A stretch of 12,460 bases of DNA from Chloroflexota bacterium (GTDB taxonomy: Bacteria; Chloroflexota; Limnocylindria; Limnocylindrales; CSP1-4): contig JAJYDP010000076.1 in NCBI GenBank assembly GCA_021777365.1, positions 1 to 12,460 of the forward strand, in the 5' to 3' direction. The position numbers and the translations under genes were made by a program. This document shows positions 842 through 12,349 of this stretch, piece after piece. Position 1 is the first letter of the stretch. The number at the start of each line of letters is the position of its first letter. Below the pieces are notes generated by a model. It searched no databases. It saw only the letters and a program-made list of their open reading frames with translations, and was not told the origin of the DNA.

Positions 842-868
842 GGTCCTCCTCACCTTTCCATGGGTAGC
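842..868 (+). repeat. Left terminal inverted repeat of the ISL3-family element
   Basis: Read inward on the plus strand it begins GGTCCTCCTCACC and ends TGGGTAGC. It pairs with the reverse strand of 2244-2270: GG, CTCCTC, TT, CC and TGGGTAGC are shared, 20 of 27 positions by hand. It contains the transposase stop codon, so the last codons of the gene form part of the repeat. Confidence 0.65.
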
Positions 869-2082
869 TCGACTGTGATCCCACTGCAGCAGAGGTAGAT
901 CATCGCGATGAGGGCGGAGGCGGAATGATGCCCGTAGCCCCGGTGGTTGATCAGGCGGATCTTCGAGTTCAGCCCCTCGAGCCTCGAGTTCGACAGCCCG
1001 AGCTCGATCGCCGCGAGGATCCCCTCGCGGTTTGCCCGGATCGTTCGTGCGAGGCGAACGAACGAGGGGATCCGGCAGCGGGAAGCCCACCCGAGCCAGA
1101 GGTCGAGCTCCTCGGCGGCCACCTTGGGATCGGCGATCTTGTAGAGGTCGCGCAGCGACTCCTTCAGCACCCAGGCGCGCCAGAGCACCCCGCCCTCGGC
1201 CCGCAGCTGCTCGAGGACCAGGCGCTGGGAGAACTTCAGCCGGGCGGGGTCTTTCACCAGGGCCCAGCGGGTCCGCTTGATCCAGACCGCGAGCGCCTCC
1301 CCGGAGGCCCGGTGGCGCCTCCAGGCCCACCGGCGGGCCGCATCCACGGCCTCGTTCGCGAGCTTCACGACGTGGAAGGGATCCACGCACCGGCGAGCCC
1401 GGGTGGCACGGGCGGCCGTGGCCTTGGCGTAGGCCCCGGCCATGTCCATGGACACGGCCTGAAGGCCCGCCGCACGCCCCTCCCCGAGCTCGTCGTAGAA
1501 GCGCTCCAGGGTGGCGGCCGAGCGCCCCTCGCCCACCCACACCACGGCCCCGTCCCGGTCGTGGTCGGCGACCACCGTGAGGTAGTGGTGGCCCCTTCGC
1601 CAGGAGATCTCGTCCACCCCGATGCGGTACAGCTCGTTCAGGCGGGCATCGTCGATCGAGTGGGCCACTACCCGGGCGACGATCCCCGCCACGGCCTCGA
1701 AGGACACCCGAAGCAGCCGGGTGATCGTGGTCTTGTCGCACCGTTGGGCGAGGAAGGCCACGACGTCCTCGAAGTCCTTCGTGTGGCGGGCCCCCGGGCG
1801 GGCCCAGGGCACCGCCTCGGTCCGGACCCGGTCACACCTCGGGCAGCAAAGCCGGCGGATCTCTGTCTCGAGCAAGAGCCGGCAGGCCCCGAGGTCGAGG
1901 TGGCGCCAGCGGCGCGTCGAACGGTCGTAGGCGGCCCGAGACGATCCCCCGCAGGGACACCAAAGCCTGCTCCGCCGACGGAGCCTGATCGAGACCACCA
2001 CGCCCTCCGGGGCGAACGCGACCCCGGTCACGGTGGCGCCGGGGATGGCCAACATGCGGTTGAATGCGGTGGTGACGCGCAC
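850..2082 (-). CDS. ISL3-family DDE transposase
   Basis: This is a complete 410-residue transposase of usual ISL3 length, which catalyses cut-and-paste or copy transposition of the surrounding element. The N-terminus carries a zinc-ribbon-like set of cysteines (C42-P-C44, then C79-C80-x-x-C83). A helical DNA-binding segment rich in R and K follows at about 100-140. The DDE catalytic triad is visible as D157 in IGVDEIS, D213 in VSMDMAG, and E369 in NSRLEGLNSKIR, the last motif being highly typical of ISL3. The GTG at 2082 is chosen because the sequence MRVTTAFNRML matches the usual ISL3 N-terminus; the ATG at 2055 is the alternative. No frameshift or internal stop is seen, so the gene looks intact. 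The start codon sits in one arm of a 13-bp inverted repeat that may limit translation from read-through transcripts. Confidence 0.92.
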   Translation of the reverse strand: MRVTTAFNRMLAIPGATVTGVAFAPEGVVVSIRLRRRSRLWCPCGGSSRAAYDRSTRRWRHLDLGACRLLLETEIRRLCCPRCDRVRTEAVPWARPGARHTKDFEDVVAFLAQRCDKTTITRLLRVSFEAVAGIVARVVAHSIDDARLNELYRIGVDEISWRRGHHYLTVVADHDRDGAVVWVGEGRSAATLERFYDELGEGRAAGLQAVSMDMAGAYAKATAARATRARRCVDPFHVVKLANEAVDAARRWAWRRHRASGEALAVWIKRTRWALVKDPARLKFSQRLVLEQLRAEGGVLWRAWVLKESLRDLYKIADPKVAAEELDLWLGWASRCRIPSFVRLARTIRANREGILAAIELGLSNSRLEGLNSKIRLINHRGYGHHSASALIAMIYLCCSGITVELPMER

Positions 2083-3418: not shown

Positions 3419-6400
3419 TGGCTCCGCGGGGACCCTCGACGCTCCGCTCCTCGCGAAGCGCAGGTACAGCGAGGGGATCACGAACAGGTTCAGCAGGGTG
3501 GAGGTGACCAGCCCGCCGACGATCACGACGGCCATCGGGTGCTCGATCTCGTGGCCGGGCAGGTTCCCCGCGATCACGAGCGGGACCAGCGCGAGGCCGG
3601 TCGCGAGCGCCGTCATGAGGATCGGGCGGAGCCGCTCCCGCGCGCCCCGCAGGACGAGCCCGGGTCCGAAGGGCTCGCCCTCGAACCGCTCCAGGTGCTG
3701 GAGGTGGTTGATCAGCATGATCCCGTTGCGGGCGGCGATGCCGAGGACGGTGAAGAAGCCGACCAGCGTGCCGATCGAGATGATGCCGCCGCCGGCCCAG
3801 GCCGCCAGGATGCCGCCGGCGAGAGCCATCGGCAGGGCGAGGAACGACATCGTGGCCAGCCGCCAGCTCCGGAAGGCCCGGCGCAGCAGCAGGAACACCA
3901 CCAGCACCGCGCCGATGGCGAGGGTCAGCAGGTTCCGCTGCGCCGACTGGCGCTCCGCGAACTCGCCGAGCACCTCCGCGTGGTAGCCGAGCGGGGACCG
4001 TGTCCGCTGCAGCGCCGCGTGCAGGTCCCCGACCACCGACCCGAGGTCCCGACCCGAGACGTTGGCGGCCACCTCGATGCTCCGCGACCCCTGCTCGCGG
4101 TGGACGGCGTTCGGGGCGGGCTGGAGCGTCACGTCGGCCACCTGCGCGAGCCGCACGTGCCCCCCGTCCGGAGTGTCGAGCAGCAGCCGGCGGATGTCGG
4201 TCACGCTGCTGCGTGTCTCCGGGACGCTCCAGACCTGGACGTCGTAGGCCTTCCCGTCCCGGAAGATGTCGCCGACCTCCTCGCCGGAAACGAGCGTCGC
4301 CGCGGCCCGACGGACGTCGCCGGGCTTGACCCCGTAGCGCTGCGCCGCGGCGAGGTTCACCCGGACGTTGATCTGGGGAACATCCTCCTGGAACTCCACG
4401 TGCTGCTCGGTCACCCCGTCGATGCCGGAGAGAAGCTTCAGGACCTTCTCGGCCTGGGCGCGAAGCACGTGGAGGTCGGGACCGAAGATCCGGACGACGA
4501 TCGGCTCGCTCGACCCCGCCAGCACCTCGTCGACGCGCTCGTTGAAGTAGGTGAGCACGTCGCTGTAGAGACCCGGGTAGCTCGCGGCCACGCCCCGGAT
4601 CGCGGCGACGGTCTTGTCGTAGTCGGCCCCCGGGTCCAGGCTCACCCAGTTCTCGCCGAAGTTCCCGCCGACCACCTCCTCGGCGAGCAACGCCTGCCCG
4701 ATGTGGGAGCCGAAGCTCTGGACGCCGGGGATCGCCGAGAGGTCGCGGCTCGACGCCGTCACGATCCGCCGCTCCTCCGGCAGCGAGGTGCCGGGCTTGG
4801 TGAGCCAGTGCATCAGGAAGTTGCGCTCCTTGAATTGCGGGAGCAGCGACTGGCCGAGGCTCGGCACGACCAGGACCCCCGCGAGGACGATCACGCTGCC
4901 GGCCACCGCAATGCGAAGCGGGCGGCGCATGACCCTCGCCAGCAGCGCGGTGTAGGCGCGCTGGAGCCAGACCACCAGCGGCGACTCCCGCCGCTCGATC
5001 GGCGCCTTTCGCAGCAGGATCAGCGCGAGGGCCGGCGTGACCGTGAGCGCGACCCCCATCGAGGCCAGGACGGCGAGCCCGTACGCCATGGCCAGCGGCC
5101 GGAACAGCGCCCCGGTCAGCCCGCTGATGAAGAAGATCGGCAGCAGCGTCGCGACATCGATCAGCGTCGCGAAGATGATGGCGCCGCGCACCTCGATCGA
5201 GGCGTCGAGGATGAGGCGCGGCGTGGACAGCGTGGTCCCCTGCGCGCGGTGCAGCCGCAGGCGGCGCACGATGTTCTCGACGTCGATGATCGCGTCGTCG
5301 ACGACCACCCCCACCGCGATCACGAACCCGGCGAGCACCATCGTGTTGATCGTCGCCCCGAGGCGGTCGAGCACGAGCGCGGCCGCGAGCAGCGACAGCG
5401 GGATCGCGAGCAGGCTGATCAGCGCGGTCCGCCACTCGAAGAGGAACGAGAGCAGGACGAGCAGCACCAGGATCGAGCCGATCAGCAGGGCCATGCTCAG
5501 GTTGTGGACGGCGAGGCCGATGAAGTCGGCTGCCTGGAAGACCTTGGAGTCGATCTGCACGCCGGGGAGCCCCGGACGGAGCTCCCCCAGCGCCTGCTCG
5601 ACCCCGCGGGTCGCCACCAGCGTGTTCGCCCAGGGCGCCTTCTCCACGACGAGCAGGAGCCCGGGGCCGTTGTTGATGACGGCGTCGCCGATCAGCGGCT
5701 GGTGGCCGTAGACGACCCTCGCCACGTCGGCCAGCCGGAGCTCCCGCCCGTGCGGCCCCGCCCGGGAGCCCTCGATGGGGACATCGGCCAGGCTCGCCGG
5801 ATCGAGAATCGGAAGGGGATGCTCCACCGAGATCCGCTGGTTCGGGGTGTCGACGAACCCGCCGGTCCCGATCCGCGCGCCGTTCGAGAACTTCAGGATC
5901 CCGGCGTCGAGCGCGTCGGCCGTCGTGCGCATGACCTGGTCGAGCGTGACCCCGTTCGCGCTCATGAGCGTCGGCTCGACCTGCACCTGCGGCATCTTCA
6001 GGCGCTCGCCCCAGATCGCCACGTTGACCACGCCGGGCACGCGCAGCAGCCGGGTGCGGATGGTCCAGTAAGCCGTCATCGAGAGGTCCATGAGGTTCAT
6101 CGACCTCGACGACAGCCCGATCTCCATGAACCGGCCCGTCGTGGAGACGGGCGGGTATATCACCGGGGGCGCCGCCCAGGTCGGCAGGGTGCGGGAGACT
6201 GTCGCCATGCGCTCCTGCACGAGCTGCCGGGCCTCCAGGAGGTCGGTGCCCGGCTTGAACAGCATCTCGATCGAGGAGAGCTGCGGGACCGACCGCGACC
6301 GCATGAGGTCGAGCCCGGGCGTCCCGTTCAGCGCCTGCTCGAGCGGGACCGTGACGAGCTGCTCCACCTCGTCGGCCGACAGCCCGACGCAGGCGGTCTG

Positions 6401-6544
6401 GATCTCGACCCGAGGGGGCGCGAACTCGGGGAACACGTCCACCGGCATGCCGCGGAGCTCCCCGACGCCGAAGAAGAGCATCGCCCCGGCGAACGCCACC
6501 ACGAGGAACCGGAACTTCAGGCTGGTGCCGACGATCCAGCGCAT
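3416..6544 (-). CDS. RND-superfamily efflux permease 1
   Basis: This is a 1042-residue proton-driven inner-membrane transporter of normal RND length with the duplicated 6+6 TM layout. TM1 lies at about 10-28, the first porter domain at 30-340, and TM2-6 at about 345-510; the second half repeats this from about residue 525. The porter start (PVDVFPEFAPPRVEIQT, EVEQLVTVPLEQALNG, ARQLVQERM) resembles metal pumps of the CzcA/CusA type. TM4, however, reads V-V-D-D-A-I-I-D-V-E-N, with an AcrB-like D416-D417 pair plus an extra D421 before E423. TM10 reads G-I-A-A-R-N-G-I-M-L-I-N, with Arg where AcrB has the relay Lys. Substrate class is therefore open: metal, hydrophobic drug or lipid. The ATG at 6544 follows GTG at 6547, and either may be used. 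The adaptor-like gene ends 22 bases before the ATG; the lipoprotein follows within 11. Confidence 0.93.
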   Translation of the reverse strand: MRWIVGTSLKFRFLVVAFAGAMLFFGVGELRGMPVDVFPEFAPPRVEIQTACVGLSADEVEQLVTVPLEQALNGTPGLDLMRSRSVPQLSSIEMLFKPGTDLLEARQLVQERMATVSRTLPTWAAPPVIYPPVSTTGRFMEIGLSSRSMNLMDLSMTAYWTIRTRLLRVPGVVNVAIWGERLKMPQVQVEPTLMSANGVTLDQVMRTTADALDAGILKFSNGARIGTGGFVDTPNQRISVEHPLPILDPASLADVPIEGSRAGPHGRELRLADVARVVYGHQPLIGDAVINNGPGLLLVVEKAPWANTLVATRGVEQALGELRPGLPGVQIDSKVFQAADFIGLAVHNLSMALLIGSILVLLVLLSFLFEWRTALISLLAIPLSLLAAALVLDRLGATINTMVLAGFVIAVGVVVDDAIIDVENIVRRLRLHRAQGTTLSTPRLILDASIEVRGAIIFATLIDVATLLPIFFISGLTGALFRPLAMAYGLAVLASMGVALTVTPALALILLRKAPIERRESPLVVWLQRAYTALLARVMRRPLRIAVAGSVIVLAGVLVVPSLGQSLLPQFKERNFLMHWLTKPGTSLPEERRIVTASSRDLSAIPGVQSFGSHIGQALLAEEVVGGNFGENWVSLDPGADYDKTVAAIRGVAASYPGLYSDVLTYFNERVDEVLAGSSEPIVVRIFGPDLHVLRAQAEKVLKLLSGIDGVTEQHVEFQEDVPQINVRVNLAAAQRYGVKPGDVRRAAATLVSGEEVGDIFRDGKAYDVQVWSVPETRSSVTDIRRLLLDTPDGGHVRLAQVADVTLQPAPNAVHREQGSRSIEVAANVSGRDLGSVVGDLHAALQRTRSPLGYHAEVLGEFAERQSAQRNLLTLAIGAVLVVFLLLRRAFRSWRLATMSFLALPMALAGGILAAWAGGGIISIGTLVGFFTVLGIAARNGIMLINHLQHLERFEGEPFGPGLVLRGARERLRPILMTALATGLALVPLVIAGNLPGHEIEHPMAVVIVGGLVTSTLLNLFVIPSLYLRFARSGASRVPAEP

Positions 6545-6566
6545 CACGGGAGGCGCGCCCCTTCGC

Positions 6567-7016
6567 TCACTCCTGGCCGACCCCGTACTCGGTGCCGTAC
6601 AGCTCGGCCGCTCCCACCGTCACGACCTGCGTGCCGGGCCGCGGGCCGCCCGACAGGAACGCGTCCTGCCCCTCGATGCGGTCGACCCGGATCTCGGCGC
6701 GGACGAACACGAGCGGGTCGGGGTTCGCGTACACCCACGTCCTGCCCGCGGCGTCGTAGACGACGGCCGCGTAGGGGACGACGAGGTCCGCGTCCCCCGA
6801 CCCCGTCGGCGCCTCCCGAACCGGGGACGTCTCGACGCCGAGCCGCTTGGCCGCGTCGGCCGAGAGCGTGATGCGGCTGACGTCGCTCCCCTCGATCGCC
6901 TCCACGGTCGCCGGCTCCCGGACGGTCGCGGTCTCGCCGGAGGACCGGGTGCACGACGGGAGCAGCAGCCCGGCAGCGATCAGCGCCCCGATGGCCCATC
7001 CGTGACGCACTCGCAT
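6567..7016 (-). CDS. Miniature RND adaptor-like lipoprotein
   Basis: This encodes a 149-residue protein, against about 350-450 for ordinary periplasmic adaptors (HlyD/CusB/AcrA family). Residues 1-21 form a signal peptide ending in the lipobox L-L-P-S-C22, so the protein should be lipid-anchored outside the membrane. After a short linker, L-S-A-D-A-A-K-R-L-G-V-E-T-S-P-V (51-66) resembles the strand that precedes adaptor barrels. V-V-P-Y-A-A-V-V-Y-D, G-R-T-W-V-Y, P-G-T-Q-V-V-T-V-G-A-A-E-L-Y-G-T-E-Y-G (79-145) is the classic C-terminal membrane-proximal signature. The lipoyl domain and alpha-hairpin that reach an outer-membrane channel are absent, and there is no room for them. ATG 7016 has GGGAGG six bases upstream. 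It lies 17 bases after RND permease 2 and 22 before RND permease 1, so it probably contacts one or both pumps. A decayed adaptor is the alternative, but the intact signal peptide argues against this. Confidence 0.85.
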   Translation of the reverse strand: MRVRHGWAIGALIAAGLLLPSCTRSSGETATVREPATVEAIEGSDVSRITLSADAAKRLGVETSPVREAPTGSGDADLVVPYAAVVYDAAGRTWVYANPDPLVFVRAEIRVDRIEGQDAFLSGGPRPGTQVVTVGAAELYGTEYGVGQE

Positions 7017-7033
7017 GTCTGCCTCCCGTGCGC

Positions 7034-10000
7034 TCAGGTCCTGGGGGCCGGCTCCTCATCGGGCAGGAGGGCCACGCCCCCGCTCCCCGCCATCCCGACC
7101 GTCGCGGCCGATCCGAACCGCAGGTAGAGCGGGGCGACGACGAACAGGGACACCAGCAGGGCCGTGACCAGCCCCCCGAGGATCACGACCGCCATCGGAT
7201 GGACGAGCTCGAGGCCGGGGATCGGCCCGAGCCACACGATCGGGACCAGCGCCAGCGCGGTGGCCGCGGCGCTGGCCACGACCGGCAGGAAGTGCTCGCC
7301 GGCCCCCCGCAGGACGAGCTCGGGGCCGAACCCGATGCCCTCCTCCCGCTGCAGGCGCTGGACGCGACGGACCAGGGTGACCGTGAAGCGCGTCGAGAGG
7401 CCGAACACCACCATCAGCCCGGCCAGGGTGCCGAGCGAGACCGGCCGCCCCGAGGCGAACGCCGCGAGGACCCCGCCGGAGAGGGACGCGGCGATCGAGA
7501 GGAGCGCCATCGTCGCCAGCCGCCAGCTCCACGTCGCCGCCTGGAGCAGCAGGAAGATGCCGACCGCGACGGCGGCCGCGACGGCCAGGAAGCGGCCGTG
7601 CGCCGCCTGCCGGTCGGCGTAGTTGCCCACAAGCTCGGCGTGGTGCTCGAGCGGGAACGAGACCGCCTGCACCCGCCGGCCCACATCGGCGGCGACCGCG
7701 CCGGGGCTCCGTCCCGAGACGCCCGCGGTGACGTCGAGGTAGCGCGAGATGTCCTGGTGCCGCACCACGACCGGGTAGGGCTGCACGCGCACGTCGGCGA
7801 GCTTCGCCAGGCGCACCAGCCCGCCGTCCGGCCGGTCGACCAGCAGGTTCGAGATGCTGGTCAGGCTCGCCCGCGACTCGGGCGTGCCCCACACCACCAC
7901 GTCGAAGACCATCTGCTGCTCGTAGAGGCTCCCGACGATGGTCCCGGAGAGCAGCGTGGCAGCCGCCCGGCGCACGTCGCCCGGCTTGACCCCGAAGCGT
8001 TCGGCGGCCGCGAGGTCGACCACGACGCTCGCCGTCGGCTCCTCGACCATCGGCGACACGCGAGGGTTCACGACGCCGTCGATCCCCGCGATCGCCCTGC
8101 GAATCTCCTCGGCCTTGCTGCGGAGCACGCCGAGGTCCTGACCGAAGACCCGGACCACGATCGGCGGGTCGGTCGGGGTCAGCACGCTCGAGACCCGCTG
8201 GTTCGGGTACGTCTCCACCGCGGAGCGCAGGCCCGGGTAGCCGCGAACCGTCCGGTTGATCGCGGCGAGCGTCGCCTCGTAGTCGGCCGAGGGGTCGACG
8301 TGGACCCACAGCTCGCCCGAGCCGACGTCCACCACCTGGTCGGACATGATGGCCCGGCCGACGTGCGCGCCCACCGACCGGACCCCCGGCAGCGAGCGGA
8401 GCTCCACGCCAACGCGCGCGGTGATCCTGTCCATCTCCGGCAGGGAGGTTCCGGGCGCCGCCGCCTGAAGCCTCACGATGACGTCCCCGTCCCTGAACGA
8501 GGGAACCGTCGACCGATCGAGGAGCGGCAGCAGCGCGAGGGACGCGAGCACGACGACCCCGGCGGCCGCGTACACCGGCCGCGGCCGGCCGACCGCCCGG
8601 GACAGCAGGTTCCCGTACCCGTGACGCAGCCGGCGGGCGATCGCCGACTCGCCCCGCGTCCGCGTGGCCCCCGCCAGGAGCACGAGCCCGAGTGCCGGCG
8701 TCACCAGCAGGGCCACCACCATCGAGGCGGCGACCGCGAGCACGTACGACAGGGCGATCGGCGGGAAGAATGCGCCGGACTCCCCCGTCAGGAAGAAGAC
8801 CGGCAACGCGGCGATCAGGATCACGAGGGTCGCGTAGCCGGCCGCCCCGCGCGTCTCGAGCGCGGCCGCGAGCGCGAGCCGCGCGGGCGGCTCGGTGCCA
8901 CCTTTCATCCGGTCCCGGCGCAGGCGGCTGCCGATGTTCTCCACGTCGGCGACGGCGTCGTCGACGATCACGCCGAGCGCCATCACCAGCCCGGCGAGCG
9001 CCATCGCGTTGACCGTGGCCCCCAGCAGGAACAGGACGATCCCGGCGGCGGCGAGCGACGCCGCGACCGCCACCACGACGACGAGCACGTGCCGCCAGCT
9101 CGCCAGCAGGAGCAGGAGCGCCAGGACCAGCAGGAGGAACCCGATGGCCAGCGCCCGGAACAGGTTCCCGAACGATGTCTGGATGTAGGTCGCGGGGCGG
9201 TAGACCGTGGGGTCGATGGCCATGCCGGGAAGGCCCGGACGCATCCCGTCGAGCGCGTCCTCCACCCCCCGGGTCACCTCGAGCGTGTTCGCCGCGGGGA
9301 ACTTCTCGACGACGAGCAGGAGCCCTCCCCCGCCGTCGGGGAACACCGCGTCGCCGATCAGCGGCTGGTGGTCCTCCACGACGTTCGCGACGTCCTGCAG
9401 GCGGAGGCCCGGGGCGCCCTCGATCGGGACGACCGCGAGGTCCTTCGCGGTCTCGATCGGCTGGAGGTGCTGGACCGAGAGCCGCTGGTTGTTGGTGTCG
9501 ATGAACCCGCCGGTGCCCGGCGTGGACGCCTCGAGGAAGCTCAGCGGCGAAGCCCACAGCGCGTTGCCGGTCGTCTCGATCACGTTCTGCAGCGAGACGC
9601 CGTGGAGGCGGAGCCGACGCGGGTCCACCTGCACCTGGAGCTGGCGCTCGCGCTGGCCCCAGATCGTCACGTTCGCGACGCCGGGCACCCCCAGCAGGCG
9701 GGGACGGATCGTCCAGCGCGCGAGCACCGACATCTCGATCGCCGACAGCCGCCCAGACGAGAGTCTCACCATCATGACCCGGGTCGTGGCCGACCGTGGC
9801 GGAAGCATCTGCGGCATGGTGGAGACGTTCGGCAGCCCGGCGGCCTGCGAGATCCGCTCCTGGACGACCTGCCGTGCGTCCAGGAGGTTCGTGCCGGGGT
9901 CGAAGGTCATCTCGATCGAGGAGAGTCCGGTCATCGACTCGGATCGGATGGTGTCCAGCCAGGGAACGCCGGCGAGGAGATCCTGCTCCACCGGGACCGT

Positions 10001-10195
10001 GATCAGCTGCTCGACCTCGGAGGCCGACAGCCCGAGCGCCTCGGTCTGGACCTCCACGGTCGGGGGCGCGAACTCCGGCAGCACGTCGGCCGGCATCGAG
10101 CGGAACGCGACGACGCCCACGGCGATCAGCGCCGCCGCGAGGGCGGCCGCGAGCAGCCGCGCATTCAGAGCCGACCGGATGATCCAGCGCAGCAT
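7034..10195 (-). CDS. RND-superfamily efflux permease 2
   Basis: This encodes a 1053-residue RND permease, clearly a homologue of permease 1 (shared stretches include FGVKPGDVRRAAATL or YGVKPGDVRRAAATL, EVEQL-x-TVP, GTGGF-x-DT-x-NQR and HPMAVVI). The two have diverged enough that this is not a recent duplication. TM1 is at about 10-30, the first porter domain 32-340, and TM4 carries V-D412-D413-A-V-A-D417-V-E419-N. TM10 reads G-L-S-T-R-F-T-V-T-L-V-R: Arg replaces the usual Lys as in permease 1, and the following conserved Asn is Phe. That makes its proton relay the more unusual of the two. The ATG at 10195 is the only start in the conserved region; no ATG, GTG or TTG is in frame for over 20 codons upstream, and MLRWIIRSALNARLL matches the MRWIVGTSLKFRFL start of permease 1. 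The leader lacks a good SD and carries an eight-G run. It is the first gene of the pump operon. Confidence 0.93.
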   Translation of the reverse strand: MLRWIIRSALNARLLAAALAAALIAVGVVAFRSMPADVLPEFAPPTVEVQTEALGLSASEVEQLITVPVEQDLLAGVPWLDTIRSESMTGLSSIEMTFDPGTNLLDARQVVQERISQAAGLPNVSTMPQMLPPRSATTRVMMVRLSSGRLSAIEMSVLARWTIRPRLLGVPGVANVTIWGQRERQLQVQVDPRRLRLHGVSLQNVIETTGNALWASPLSFLEASTPGTGGFIDTNNQRLSVQHLQPIETAKDLAVVPIEGAPGLRLQDVANVVEDHQPLIGDAVFPDGGGGLLLVVEKFPAANTLEVTRGVEDALDGMRPGLPGMAIDPTVYRPATYIQTSFGNLFRALAIGFLLLVLALLLLLASWRHVLVVVVAVAASLAAAGIVLFLLGATVNAMALAGLVMALGVIVDDAVADVENIGSRLRRDRMKGGTEPPARLALAAALETRGAAGYATLVILIAALPVFFLTGESGAFFPPIALSYVLAVAASMVVALLVTPALGLVLLAGATRTRGESAIARRLRHGYGNLLSRAVGRPRPVYAAAGVVVLASLALLPLLDRSTVPSFRDGDVIVRLQAAAPGTSLPEMDRITARVGVELRSLPGVRSVGAHVGRAIMSDQVVDVGSGELWVHVDPSADYEATLAAINRTVRGYPGLRSAVETYPNQRVSSVLTPTDPPIVVRVFGQDLGVLRSKAEEIRRAIAGIDGVVNPRVSPMVEEPTASVVVDLAAAERFGVKPGDVRRAAATLLSGTIVGSLYEQQMVFDVVVWGTPESRASLTSISNLLVDRPDGGLVRLAKLADVRVQPYPVVVRHQDISRYLDVTAGVSGRSPGAVAADVGRRVQAVSFPLEHHAELVGNYADRQAAHGRFLAVAAAVAVGIFLLLQAATWSWRLATMALLSIAASLSGGVLAAFASGRPVSLGTLAGLMVVFGLSTRFTVTLVRRVQRLQREEGIGFGPELVLRGAGEHFLPVVASAAATALALVPIVWLGPIPGLELVHPMAVVILGGLVTALLVSLFVVAPLYLRFGSAATVGMAGSGGVALLPDEEPAPRT

Positions 10196-10251
10196 GGCCG
10201 CCCCCCCCGACGCCGCGGCCTCCTCCGCCCCTCGCGCGGCCGTCGATTCGA

Positions 10252-10280
10252 ACGCTAGGCACGCGCGCAGGCGGTGTCGT
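10252..10280 (-). promoter_or_regulatory. Candidate sigma-70-type promoter of the pump operon
   Basis: On the minus strand ACGACA (10280-10275) and TAGCGT (10257-10252) are separated by exactly 17 bases. They match the -35 consensus at four of six and the TANNNT pattern at -10. Transcription would start near 10245, giving a leader of about 50 bases. The -35 box touches the proximal copy of the tandem palindrome. It is a by-eye match in GC-rich DNA, so it is a candidate only. Confidence 0.4.
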
Positions 10281-10388: not shown

Positions 10389-11054
10389 CTACCGCGGCTG
10401 AGGCCGGACCAGCCCGGTCTCGTAGGCGAGGACCACGGCCTGGACGCGGTCGCGCAGGCGGAGCTTCTCGAGGATGTGCCGGATGTGGGTCCGCACGGTC
10501 GTGTCGGCAACGAACAGCTCCGAGGCGATCTCCTCGTTCGACAGGCCCCTGCCGACCAGCGCGAGCACCTGAAGCTCGCGCTCCGTGAGGCTCGCCAGCG
10601 CCTCCGGCGGGGCCGGGGGGGCCGGGGGAACGACCCGGCAGAACGCCTCCAGGAGCCGCCTCGTCACCGAGGGCGACAGCAGCGCGTCGCCCCGCGCCAC
10701 CACCCGGACGGCGTCCACGAGATCCTCCGGGCGGACGTCCTTCAGCAGGAAGCCGCTCGCTCCCGCGCGCAGCCCCTCGATCACGTACTCGTCGAGGTCG
10801 AAGGTCGTGAGGATCAGCACGCGCGCGGAGGCGTTCTCGCGCACGAGCCGCCGGGTCGCCTCCACCCCGTCGAGCTCCGGCATGCGGATGTCCATCAGCA
10901 CGACGTCGGGCGAGAGCAGGCGGGTCTGCTCGATGGCCTCCAGGCCGTCGGCGGCGGTCCCCACGACCTCGATGTCGGGCGCGCTGCGAAGCGTCATCTC
11001 GAACGCGGCGCGCATGAGCGGCTGGTCGTCGACGACCAGCACGCGCACGGTCAC
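10389..11054 (-). CDS. NarL/LuxR-family response regulator
   Basis: This encodes a 221-residue DNA-binding response regulator. The receiver domain spans about 1-120, with acidic D9-D10, phospho-acceptor D55 in L-M-D-I-R-M-P, switch T83/T84 and K105 all in place. A Pro/Ala linker (P-P-A-P-P-A-P-P-E-A, 143-152) joins it to a C-terminal LuxR-type helix-turn-helix at about 155-212 (L-T-E-R-E-L-Q-V-L, G-L-S-N-E-E-I-A, T-T-V-R-T-H-I). The GTG start at 11054 overlaps the kinase stop codon as GTGA, indicating translational coupling; GGAG lies about nine bases upstream. The product should be phosphorylated by the kinase encoded before it and bind a symmetric site as a dimer. Both the tandem palindrome at 10280-10317 and the palindrome at 12350-12395 are candidate targets. 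The regulon is not shown by sequence alone. Confidence 0.93.
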   Translation of the reverse strand: MTVRVLVVDDQPLMRAAFEMTLRSAPDIEVVGTAADGLEAIEQTRLLSPDVVLMDIRMPELDGVEATRRLVRENASARVLILTTFDLDEYVIEGLRAGASGFLLKDVRPEDLVDAVRVVARGDALLSPSVTRRLLEAFCRVVPPAPPAPPEALASLTERELQVLALVGRGLSNEEIASELFVADTTVRTHIRHILEKLRLRDRVQAVVLAYETGLVRPQPR

Positions 11055-12319
11055 CGGGAGGCTCCGTTCAGCGGAAGGTACGCGATGACCCGATAGCCAC
11101 CCCCGGGCCGGTTGCCCACCGACAGCCGGCCGCCGAAGAGCGTCACGCGCTCGCGCATGCCGAGCTGTCCGAACCCCATCCTCGTTCCGCCCCGCCCCGC
11201 CGCGCCGTCGCCGTCGTCCTCGATCGTGAGGCGGAGGCCGGCTGCCTCGTAGGCCACCACCACGCGCGCGTGCGCCGTGTGCCCGGCGTGCTTCAGCACG
11301 TTGGTGAGCGCCTCCTGGGTGATCCGGTAGGCGGACAGGTCGAGCGCCACGGGGAGGGGCCGCGGCAGCCCCTCGGTTCTGACCGACACCGGGAGGCCCG
11401 CCTCGCGAACCTGGGCGACGAGGGTCCCGAGGTCCCGCATGCCGGGCGGCGGCGCGAGGTCGGGCGCGCCGGAGTCGGCATCGATCCGCAGGAAGCCGGT
11501 CATCCGCCGCATCTCCGCGAGCGCCTCACGGCCGATCTCCTCGATGCACCCGAGCGAGGAGCGCGCGTCCTCCGGGTGCCCGTCGAAGACGCGGCGCGCG
11601 CCGCCGGCCTGCGCGACCATGATGCTCACGTTGTGCGCCACGATGTCGTGGAGCTCCCTCGCGATGACCCGCCGCTCCTCCATCACGGCCTGGCGCACCC
11701 GCTCCTCCCGCTCCCGCTCCAGGCGCGCCGCGCGGTCCTCCAGCTGCACGACCCTGCCGCGGCGGAGCCGGAGGCCGTCGCCGAGGAACCACGCCGCGCC
11801 GACGATCAGGTAGTCCGCGATGAACGTGTCCGGGGCGATCCGGCGCCTGTCGAGCAGGAGGGAGAGCAGCAGCGGCACGCCGGCCACGACCCCGGCCGGC
11901 ACGGAGACGGGCCGGTCGCGATGGGCGGCGACCGTGTAGAGCGCGACGAGGAAGCCGAACGATGCCAGCGACGGGCGGTACCCGAGCACCGAGAACGAGA
12001 GCAGCCCGGCTCCGGTCGCGCCAAGGACCCAGACCGGTGCCCTCCTCCGCAGTGCGAGCGGCACCGTCTGGACCCCGACGAGCAGCAGCCCGAGCAGGTC
12101 GAACCGCCGGAAGACGTCGCGCTCGGCCTCGAGCAGGTCCATGTCGAAGTGCGCAGCGATGCCCGCGAGCGCCGCGAGCGCGAGCGCCGCCGCCACGATC
12201 GTGTCCTGGGCGATGGGGCTCGCCGGCCACGGCCCTGCTCTCACCCCCGCCCCGGCGGCGATGCGCGCGCCCCCCGAGCCGGTGCCGCCGACCCGACGCC
12301 CCGGTCCCTCCCTCTTCAT
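11051..12319 (-). CDS. Membrane sensor histidine kinase, DesK/NarL-partner type
   Basis: This encodes a 422-residue sensor kinase. After a short Gly/Arg-rich cytoplasmic start come about six hydrophobic segments (roughly 38-56, 74-90, 95-112, 117-133, 140-157, 166-182) with very short loops. Any signal is therefore probably sensed in or at the membrane, as for DesK and antibiotic-sensing kinases. An Arg/Glu-rich coiled-coil linker (190-215) leads to the HisKA_3 dimerisation domain with the phospho-acceptor H224 in R-E-L-H-D-I-V-A-H-N. The ATPase domain has the N box (Q-E-A-L-T-N340), D-D-G-D-G at 368-372 and G-F-G-Q-L-G-M-R-E-R. ATG 12319 is chosen for the upstream GAGGA; a GTG at 12346 would add nine residues with no clear SD. 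The gene overlaps the response regulator by four bases. Confidence 0.92.
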   Translation of the reverse strand: MKREGPGRRVGGTGSGGARIAAGAGVRAGPWPASPIAQDTIVAAALALAALAGIAAHFDMDLLEAERDVFRRFDLLGLLLVGVQTVPLALRRRAPVWVLGATGAGLLSFSVLGYRPSLASFGFLVALYTVAAHRDRPVSVPAGVVAGVPLLLSLLLDRRRIAPDTFIADYLIVGAAWFLGDGLRLRRGRVVQLEDRAARLEREREERVRQAVMEERRVIARELHDIVAHNVSIMVAQAGGARRVFDGHPEDARSSLGCIEEIGREALAEMRRMTGFLRIDADSGAPDLAPPPGMRDLGTLVAQVREAGLPVSVRTEGLPRPLPVALDLSAYRITQEALTNVLKHAGHTAHARVVVAYEAAGLRLTIEDDGDGAAGRGGTRMGFGQLGMRERVTLFGGRLSVGNRPGGGYRVIAYLPLNGASR

Positions 12320-12349
12320 GGCATGTCCTCGAGAAACCTGCCCCACAAG

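Follow-up and report, generated by a model that had tools for sequence, protein, structure and literature searches.

A recurring mini-adaptor reduced to the membrane-proximal domain, encoded between two RND permease paralogues

Introduction

The DNA analysed here (hereafter, the window) covers positions 1 to 12,460 of contig JAJYDP010000076.1, from a Chloroflexota bacterium (assembly GCA_021777365.1). Between two genes for permeases of the resistance-nodulation-division (RND) type, it carries a gene for a 149-residue protein. Out of the domains of a CusB/CzcB-type RND adaptor, this protein has only the membrane-proximal domain (MPD). Termed here the mini-adaptor, it belongs to a recurring, stripped-down adaptor form whose identity and genomic context are firmly established and from which a function is proposed: with a probability of roughly 0.6, the mini-adaptor would be a dedicated, tethered MPD subunit of one exporter formed with both permeases (RND1 and RND2), acting as a constitutive activator or gate and providing no conduit.

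Adaptors have two jobs: (i) to bridge the permease to TolC; and (ii) to stimulate or gate the permease. The part that performs the stimulation has so far been argued from mutants of full adaptors. An MPD-only, hairpin-less family, present largely where no TolC family gene is found, constitutes a natural test of the base of the adaptor alone. Furthermore, the deletion series described below opens the sufficiency of the MPD to a direct test and connects the reduction of the adaptor with a second permease.

Identity of the mini-adaptor

An earlier note on this DNA, made from its letters alone, had described a short lipobox protein with only the membrane-proximal signature of an adaptor. Profiles, predicted structure and deeper relatives confirm this observation, and the accompanying claim that the adaptor is short and tethered to the membrane, with neither hairpin nor lipoyl domain, was borne out by profiles, the predicted fold and the alignment to long forms. 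The predicted structure matches the MPDs of CusB and ZneB, and adaptor MPDs fill the top rows of the comparison. When the mini-adaptor profile is aligned to that of the long forms, a single block with one internal gap is obtained (E=1.3e-56); forms that retain the beta-barrel align likewise (3e-101). In the protein of the window, the insert between the two MPD halves measures 7 residues, and the beta-barrel, the lipoyl domain and the alpha-helical hairpin are all absent.

Profile searches against adaptor families, as the earlier note had recommended, returned a match to the MPD but did not place the protein within TIGR01730 (16.7 bits, under the curated cut-off of 94.9), a cut-off which the hairpin-bearing forms do not reach either (70-74 bits). 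DUF302 was considered as the family of the mini-adaptor and rejected (12.9 bits vs a cut-off of 23). A single-sequence search of solved structures gave one match at chance level (E=0.62), and the profile did better.

The lipid-anchoring cysteine (Cys22) is invariant in 35 of 35 sequences, among which 18 columns are invariant, and the invariant residues contain no cluster of Cys, His or Met besides that cysteine. Across the 82 adaptor rows compared, 73 have a lipobox-like N-terminus, eight a hydrophobic N-terminus without the lipobox pattern, and one is cut by a contig end.

Recurrence of the short form and its operon

Of 1606 candidates from the database search, 1364 proteins matched at E<=0.001. 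The 120 closest relatives listed, of 133-164 residues, are all MPD-only by the insert measure. The earlier note had named full-length close relatives, with a frameshifted copy in the window, as the finding that would undo its claim; instead, these relatives are equally short. Since they are MPD-only and RND genes flank the adaptor in 75 of 80 loci, the mini-adaptor is not an accident of truncation, and frameshift or truncation was rejected. In the window, the open reading frame is intact, with the C-terminal end SGGPRPGTQVVTVGAAELYGTEYGVGQE.

In a scan of named genomes, 179 pattern matches were obtained; 116 of these were confirmed as relatives, and 80 loci were kept. They belong to (i) Actinomycetota, such as Arthrobacter, Cryobacterium, Streptomyces, Amycolatopsis, Nocardioides and others; and (ii) Chloroflexota bins and bins labelled Rokubacteria (four of them: L023, L083, L085 and L089), Trueperaceae, Bacteroidota, Chlamydiae and others. 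These 80 loci encode 81 adaptors, comprising 74 MPD-only forms, one remnant, five with a barrel-sized insert and one with a longer insert. The mini-adaptor is patchily distributed, being present in 15 of 396 Actinomycetota genomes (one of them with a weak partial match), 14 of 51 in the Arthrobacter group, 1 of 246 in the Streptomyces group and 6 of the 61 genomes of one compared set.

The earlier note had called for a survey of short adaptors beside RND genes, and recurrence was indeed found. In the 75 loci mentioned, the RND genes on both sides share the strand of the adaptor, and the distances between matched ends do not exceed 396 bp on the upstream side and 263 bp on the downstream side. 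Among the exceptions, a contig end cuts next to the adaptor in L015, L055 and L078, and RND1 lies about 2.4 kb upstream of the adaptor in L021. That the mini-adaptor is a decaying relic without function, as a shortened descendant of longer adaptors might be, is scarcely credible given the uniformity of the 120 listed relatives, the 18 invariant columns, an operon fixed across several phyla and the strict pairing described next.

One-to-one pairing with two permeases

All 51 Arthrobacter-group genomes have RND matches. When the tables were matched by hand, these genomes were found to contain 19 mini-adaptors, 19 RND1-class genes and 19 RND2-class genes, all adjacent, and solitary RND genes never have a mini-adaptor. 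Against ACR_tran, the RND1-class proteins reach 419-507 bits along almost the full length of the model, and the RND2-class ones 699-733 bits; in one genome (G090), both the mini-adaptor and the RND2-class gene are in two pieces. Two solitary permeases (L223 and L224) fall far outside the RND1 and RND2 clades on the permease tree.

The earlier note had placed the mini-adaptor between two pumps, both of which it might serve. The position between RND genes stands, but the fixed paralogue classes and their one-to-one pairing with the mini-adaptor make a single two-permease system likelier than two pumps sharing a part.

In Streptomyces nymphaeiformis (L086:6557-10357, plus strand), RND1 and the mini-adaptor share a single, uninterrupted open frame of 1267 codons, in which the hydrophobic stretch of the mini-adaptor lies after the last membrane helix of the permease. 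Fusion as a rule was rejected: the one Streptomyces-group genome with the system is the fused one. Two unusual gene orders were observed: (i) mini-adaptor, RND1, mini-adaptor and RND2, that is, with two mini-adaptors, in L209 (18 kb, Actinomycetota genome G050); and (ii) mini-adaptor, RND1, barrel form and RND2 in L041 (Chlamydiae bin).

A natural deletion series

The 328 database proteins compared come from three lists of best matches, so that the proportions among them have no meaning while the empty stretches do. Between the MPD halves there are fewer than 20 residues in 121 proteins, 30-39 in 31, 70-130 in 130, 131-175 in 13, 176-215 in 26 and more than 215 in four; three proteins are without one MPD half. 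No listed protein has an insert of 20-29, 40-89, 170-179 or 210-229 residues. Beyond the MPD-only form, the following stages can be distinguished: (i) remnant forms (P0154, P0156 and P0161); (ii) barrel plus MPD (A3); (iii) a decayed lipoyl domain plus barrel and MPD (P0186 and P0236); (iv) lipoyl domain, barrel and MPD without hairpin (P0183, P0245, P0253 and P0260, with HlyD_D23 and HlyD_3 above their cut-offs); and (v) hairpin, lipoyl domain, barrel and MPD (P0252, P0254 and P0266, of 395-396 residues), with the hairpin read from the sequence and TIGR01730 E-values of 1e-19 to 1e-20. P0256 (397 residues) has a long insert and no evident hairpin.

The operons of P0252, P0254 and P0266 were found neither in 400 genomes from the phylum of a Chloroflexota bin nor in 95 genomes from that of a Rokubacteria bin. 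In the scan of the 400, some match occurred in 117, at least nine of them, among the matches listed, with the strong C-terminal match of this family; most other listed rows cover the generic lipoyl/barrel part.

In the RND2 part of the permease tree, 95 tips comprise 81 with short and 14 with long adaptors (four of the latter being plasmid relatives), interleaved so that six parsimony changes are needed. This interleaving suggests that reduction probably took place several times. Judged from these sequences, the mini-adaptor family probably descends from longer CusB/CzcB-type adaptors by repeated loss of whole domains; loss, rather than gain, is the direction we infer from the canonical adaptor architecture. 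Among close relatives, the short adaptor of the earlier note holds; more distant relatives include full-length forms, from which the short ones would be derived.

Three sets of near relatives illustrate the change: (i) L023 (insert of 35 residues) vs L198 (104), with RND2 93% and MPD 87% identical; (ii) L203 (8) and L205 (11) vs L197 (149), with 78-79% and 71-72%; and (iii) L021 (6) vs L189 (116), with 83% and 61%. Erosion in place is the best reading of the first set, since its remnant can be aligned to the beginning of the barrel; the third could reflect replacement by exchange.

The two permease classes

A FastTree tree was built for 193 permeases (reduced from 198), leaving out L090-L184 as short copies and pieces of fewer than 880 residues. 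Ninety-six of the sequences form an RND1 clade (support 0.818) and 95 a second clade (0.998), in which 91 RND2 proteins (0.937) are joined by four permeases from related operons on plasmids. The loci of unusual slot order (L041, L202 and L209) have one permease of each class apiece. As in systems of the MdtBC type, neighbouring permease paralogues from two old classes are thereby combined.

In RND2, the Asp-Asp pair of transmembrane helix 4 is found in 91 of 91 proteins, and the pair plus the relay Arg in 90, the remaining one having a gap. The first Asp aligns with an Asp of CusA, and the Arg is taken here to align with Lys940 of AcrB. By contrast, all three relay residues are kept in 50 of 96 RND1 proteins, and the Asp pair is missing in 42. 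The first Asp, which changes six times over the tree, is replaced in 39 RND1 proteins, mostly by Gly, many of the altered ones being of Arthrobacter type. RND1 also evolves faster, with a mean distance from most recent common ancestor to tip of 0.93 vs 0.55 for RND2. Relay residues kept in RND2 and often altered in RND1 suggest unequal partners in part of the family; in the altered lineages, RND1 may possibly be a pseudo-permease partner, to judge from its residues.

In a mirror-tree comparison over 75 loci, mini-adaptor distances correlate with those of RND1 (0.68) and RND2 (0.62), and none of 1000 permutations reaches either value. These correlations with both permeases, together with the placement between both genes and with the 50 RND1 proteins (the one of the window included) that keep every relay residue, would fit two independent homotrimeric pumps sharing one small adaptor that caps or gates each. 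We regard such an arrangement as unlikely: it sits poorly with the strict one-to-one-to-one pairing in 51 genomes, where solitary RND genes are without mini-adaptor, and the relay residues altered in 42 RND1 proteins run contrary to a free pump in those lineages.

Outer-membrane channels and other adaptors in the host genomes

The earlier note assumed a cell devoid of the outer-membrane channel. The TolC family is usually absent: OEP/TolC was found in 0 of 51 Arthrobacter-group genomes (7 of 14 control genomes were positive) and in 0 of 14 genomes of a further set, and of 30 other mini-bearing genomes, 22 are without a TolC family gene. The assumption therefore describes the usual case, although it fails as a strict rule, as the other eight genomes indicate.

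In a Rokubacteria bin, a gene for an LbtU-family porin (L085:15466-16779, plus strand; NCBIfam 8.8e-56) lies beside a barrel-form adaptor; related open reading frames occur in nine other loci, two of which are second copies of one contig.

Full adaptors need the barrel, the lipoyl domain and the hairpin to form a conduit. Hence, it might be thought that another protein supplies these domains in trans, the more so as 28 of the 51 Arthrobacter-group genomes contain a match to TIGR01730 at E<=0.001. None of the 51 has a match above the cut-off, though ten of the weak matches are open frames of 511-586 residues scoring 72-77 bits; no adaptor-type protein appears among the conserved neighbours of the loci (one neighbour-clustering step used raw six-frame open reading frames, and some of its clusters are antisense artefacts); and there is no TolC family gene to connect to. 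Such a split adaptor is thus very improbable.

Proposed working of the system

Several tethered MPD copies may bind the outer face of a permease trimer, most likely a mixed one of RND1 and RND2, and may help to hold it together. The MPD would maintain the permease in a stimulated state, one attained by full adaptors upon TolC binding, and might influence substrate choice at the side-cleft entry; the substrate would be let out just outside the cytoplasmic membrane, without conduit. A tethered MPD with nothing above it can form no conduit, and binding to the permease, assembly and tuning of the cycle or of substrate entry are still possible for it. A mere cap, the alternative to a gate in the earlier note, is possible but less favoured here than an activator or gate.

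The MPD of a full adaptor touches the porter domain; it also affects substrate entry and vets substrates (PMC8934357). Stimulation of transporters depends on the C-terminal domains of adaptors, and it is the binding of TolC that brings about the stimulated state (PMC4338810). One actinobacterial RND pump requires a small anchored subunit, MmpS5, for its activity, and this subunit is predicted to connect the protomers (PMC12501195); this precedent indicates that the role of a small tethered subunit exists in RND pumps.

The MPDs of ZneB, CusB and MacA have been proposed to bind or present substrates. Accordingly, the mini-adaptor might itself bind or present a substrate, perhaps a lipophilic one passed to or from the neighbouring lipoprotein. 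We find this improbable, since only 25 of 70 loci have an accessory lipoprotein gene in the 1.5 kb that follow RND2, the invariant residues offer no Cys/His/Met cluster beyond the lipid cysteine, and no ligand is known. On the same count, frequent and not constant, the lipoprotein was rejected as a constant part of the system.

The single-exporter proposal could be extended to a tripartite pump dismantled stepwise: TolC would have been lost, the adaptor would have been shortened from its tip downwards in several lineages until only the docking domain remained, RND1 would be weakly conducting or non-conducting in many lineages, and the MPD would alone do the allosteric job in an RND1/RND2/MPD heteromer. 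As a whole, this scenario is offered tentatively, being somewhat doubtful.

Six observations weigh against the single-exporter proposal. (i) TolC family genes occur in 8 of the 30 other mini-bearing genomes (those of L070, L080, L023, L085, L041, L019, L013 and L021); seven are labelled as metagenome-assembled genomes, and the eighth (L070, Rhodoferax, isolate OTU1) is not, but has a metagenome-style contig name. It is possible that the TolC-positive metagenome bins are mixed; yet the locus recurs in the four Rokubacteria bins named above. (ii) Among the genomes compared, the one nearest to the window (G001, with 29% of sampled words in common) and its seven family mates are without mini-adaptor. 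(iii) In L056, the mini-adaptor is an orphan, with no RND gene within its 20-kb locus. (iv) The RND1-mini fusion was seen in a single genome, with no second case among the 246 of the Streptomyces group. (v) RND1 of the window keeps all three relay residues and, in consequence, the argument for unequal partners is not directly applicable to the window. (vi) The partial correlations of the mirror-tree comparison are 0.39 (RND1) and 0.15 (RND2), with a bootstrap interval of the difference from -0.20 to 0.62 that singles out no partner. From the TolC-bearing and porin-bearing genomes it follows that the reduced adaptor may serve outer-membrane cells too, exporting into the periplasm.

The operon in the window

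On the minus strand, the genes follow the order histidine kinase, response regulator, RND1, mini-adaptor, RND2 and the gene for a secreted protein or lipoprotein (Table 1). The spacers flanking the mini-adaptor measure 17 and 19 bp, and ZneA (4k0e) is the nearest solved structure for both permeases. By its position, the LuxR-type response regulator is likely the regulator of the operon. The accessory protein matched no Pfam or NCBIfam family.

Table 1. Features of the mini-adaptor operon (positions in the window).
Feature	Position	Strand	Basis
Mini-adaptor, MPD-only RND adaptor, 149 residues	6567..7016	minus	ATG start at 7016
Signal peptide and lipobox, residues 1-22 (Cys22)	6951..7016	minus	sequence; conservation of Cys22
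MPD N-terminal half, residues 34-68	6813..6917	minus	profile, fold, insert measure
Linker, residues 69-75, in place of barrel, lipoyl domain and hairpin of full adaptors	6792..6812	minus	profile alignment
MPD C-terminal half, residues 76-145	6582..6791	minus	profile and fold matches
RND1, CusA/ZneA-like permease paralogue, 1053 residues	7034..10195	minus	ATG at 10195; ACR_tran 550 bits; RND1 clade
RND2, CusA/ZneA-like permease paralogue, 1043 residues	3416..6547	minus	ACR_tran 728 bits; RND2 clade
Accessory secreted protein or lipoprotein, 305 residues	2487..3404	minus	LolA/RseB/YmcC-like predicted fold
LuxR-type response regulator	10389..11054	minus	Response_reg and GerE domains
Sensor histidine kinase, partner of the response regulator	11051..12346	minus	HisKA_3, HATPase_c, DUF7134

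Downstream of the operon lies a gene for an ISL3 family transposase (850-2082, minus strand; NCBIfam 1.4e-85). Antisense to the permeases run two long open frames on the plus strand (3539-6871, 1110 codons; and 7028-10258, 1076 codons), likely a side effect of high G+C.

Comparison with known systems

No MPD-only RND adaptor was found in the literature searched, including the available parts of PMC4446572, PMC8277102 and PMC13328181, subscription literature being mostly outside the search. Full adaptors such as CusB, ZneB, AcrA and MexA differ from the mini-adaptor in possessing a barrel, a lipoyl domain, a hairpin and a TolC partner. BesA of Borrelia burgdorferi is hairpin-less, but keeps the barrel and the lipoyl domain, whereas the protein of the window is without all three; moreover, the partners of BesA are a single permease and a TolC-type channel (PMC3807786). 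The BesA type fits the longer relatives P0183, P0245, P0253 and P0260, and not the mini-adaptor of the window.

Plasmid operons of Hymenobacter, Methylomonas and Sphingomonas (L185-L187) comprise a TolC family gene, an adaptor and one RND permease; a fourth plasmid-type record (L188) has no annotation. Their adaptors, in which 192-262 residues separate the MPD halves, are related to the long forms, and their permeases are the sister group of RND2. In the proteobacterial plasmid relatives (L186, L187 and L188, of 314-325 residues), the inserts of 192-204 residues are too short for a full hairpin, and the adaptors of L186 and L187 nonetheless adjoin a TolC family gene; possibly, these three are further adaptors of the BesA type.

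With MdtBC and MuxBC, the system shares two adjacent, anciently split permease paralogues that are kept together (PMC7015380; PMC4338810). An unequal importance of the relay has been reported for MdtB and MdtC (PMC4338810), as RND1 and RND2 suggest in part of the family. Nevertheless, MdtABC uses a full adaptor and TolC, and its heterotrimer has been shown, while that of RND1 and RND2 is putative; also, the full adaptor of the MdtBC type is encoded upstream of the permeases and the mini-adaptor between them.

Finally, MmpS5-MmpL5 of mycobacteria resembles the present system in having a small, membrane-tethered subunit with a beta-domain in an actinobacterial RND pump without TolC (PMC12501195). 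MmpS5 consists of a transmembrane helix and an immunoglobulin-like domain, whereas the mini-adaptor is an MPD, mostly with a lipobox; MmpS5 is to be regarded as an analogue, not being known as a homologue.
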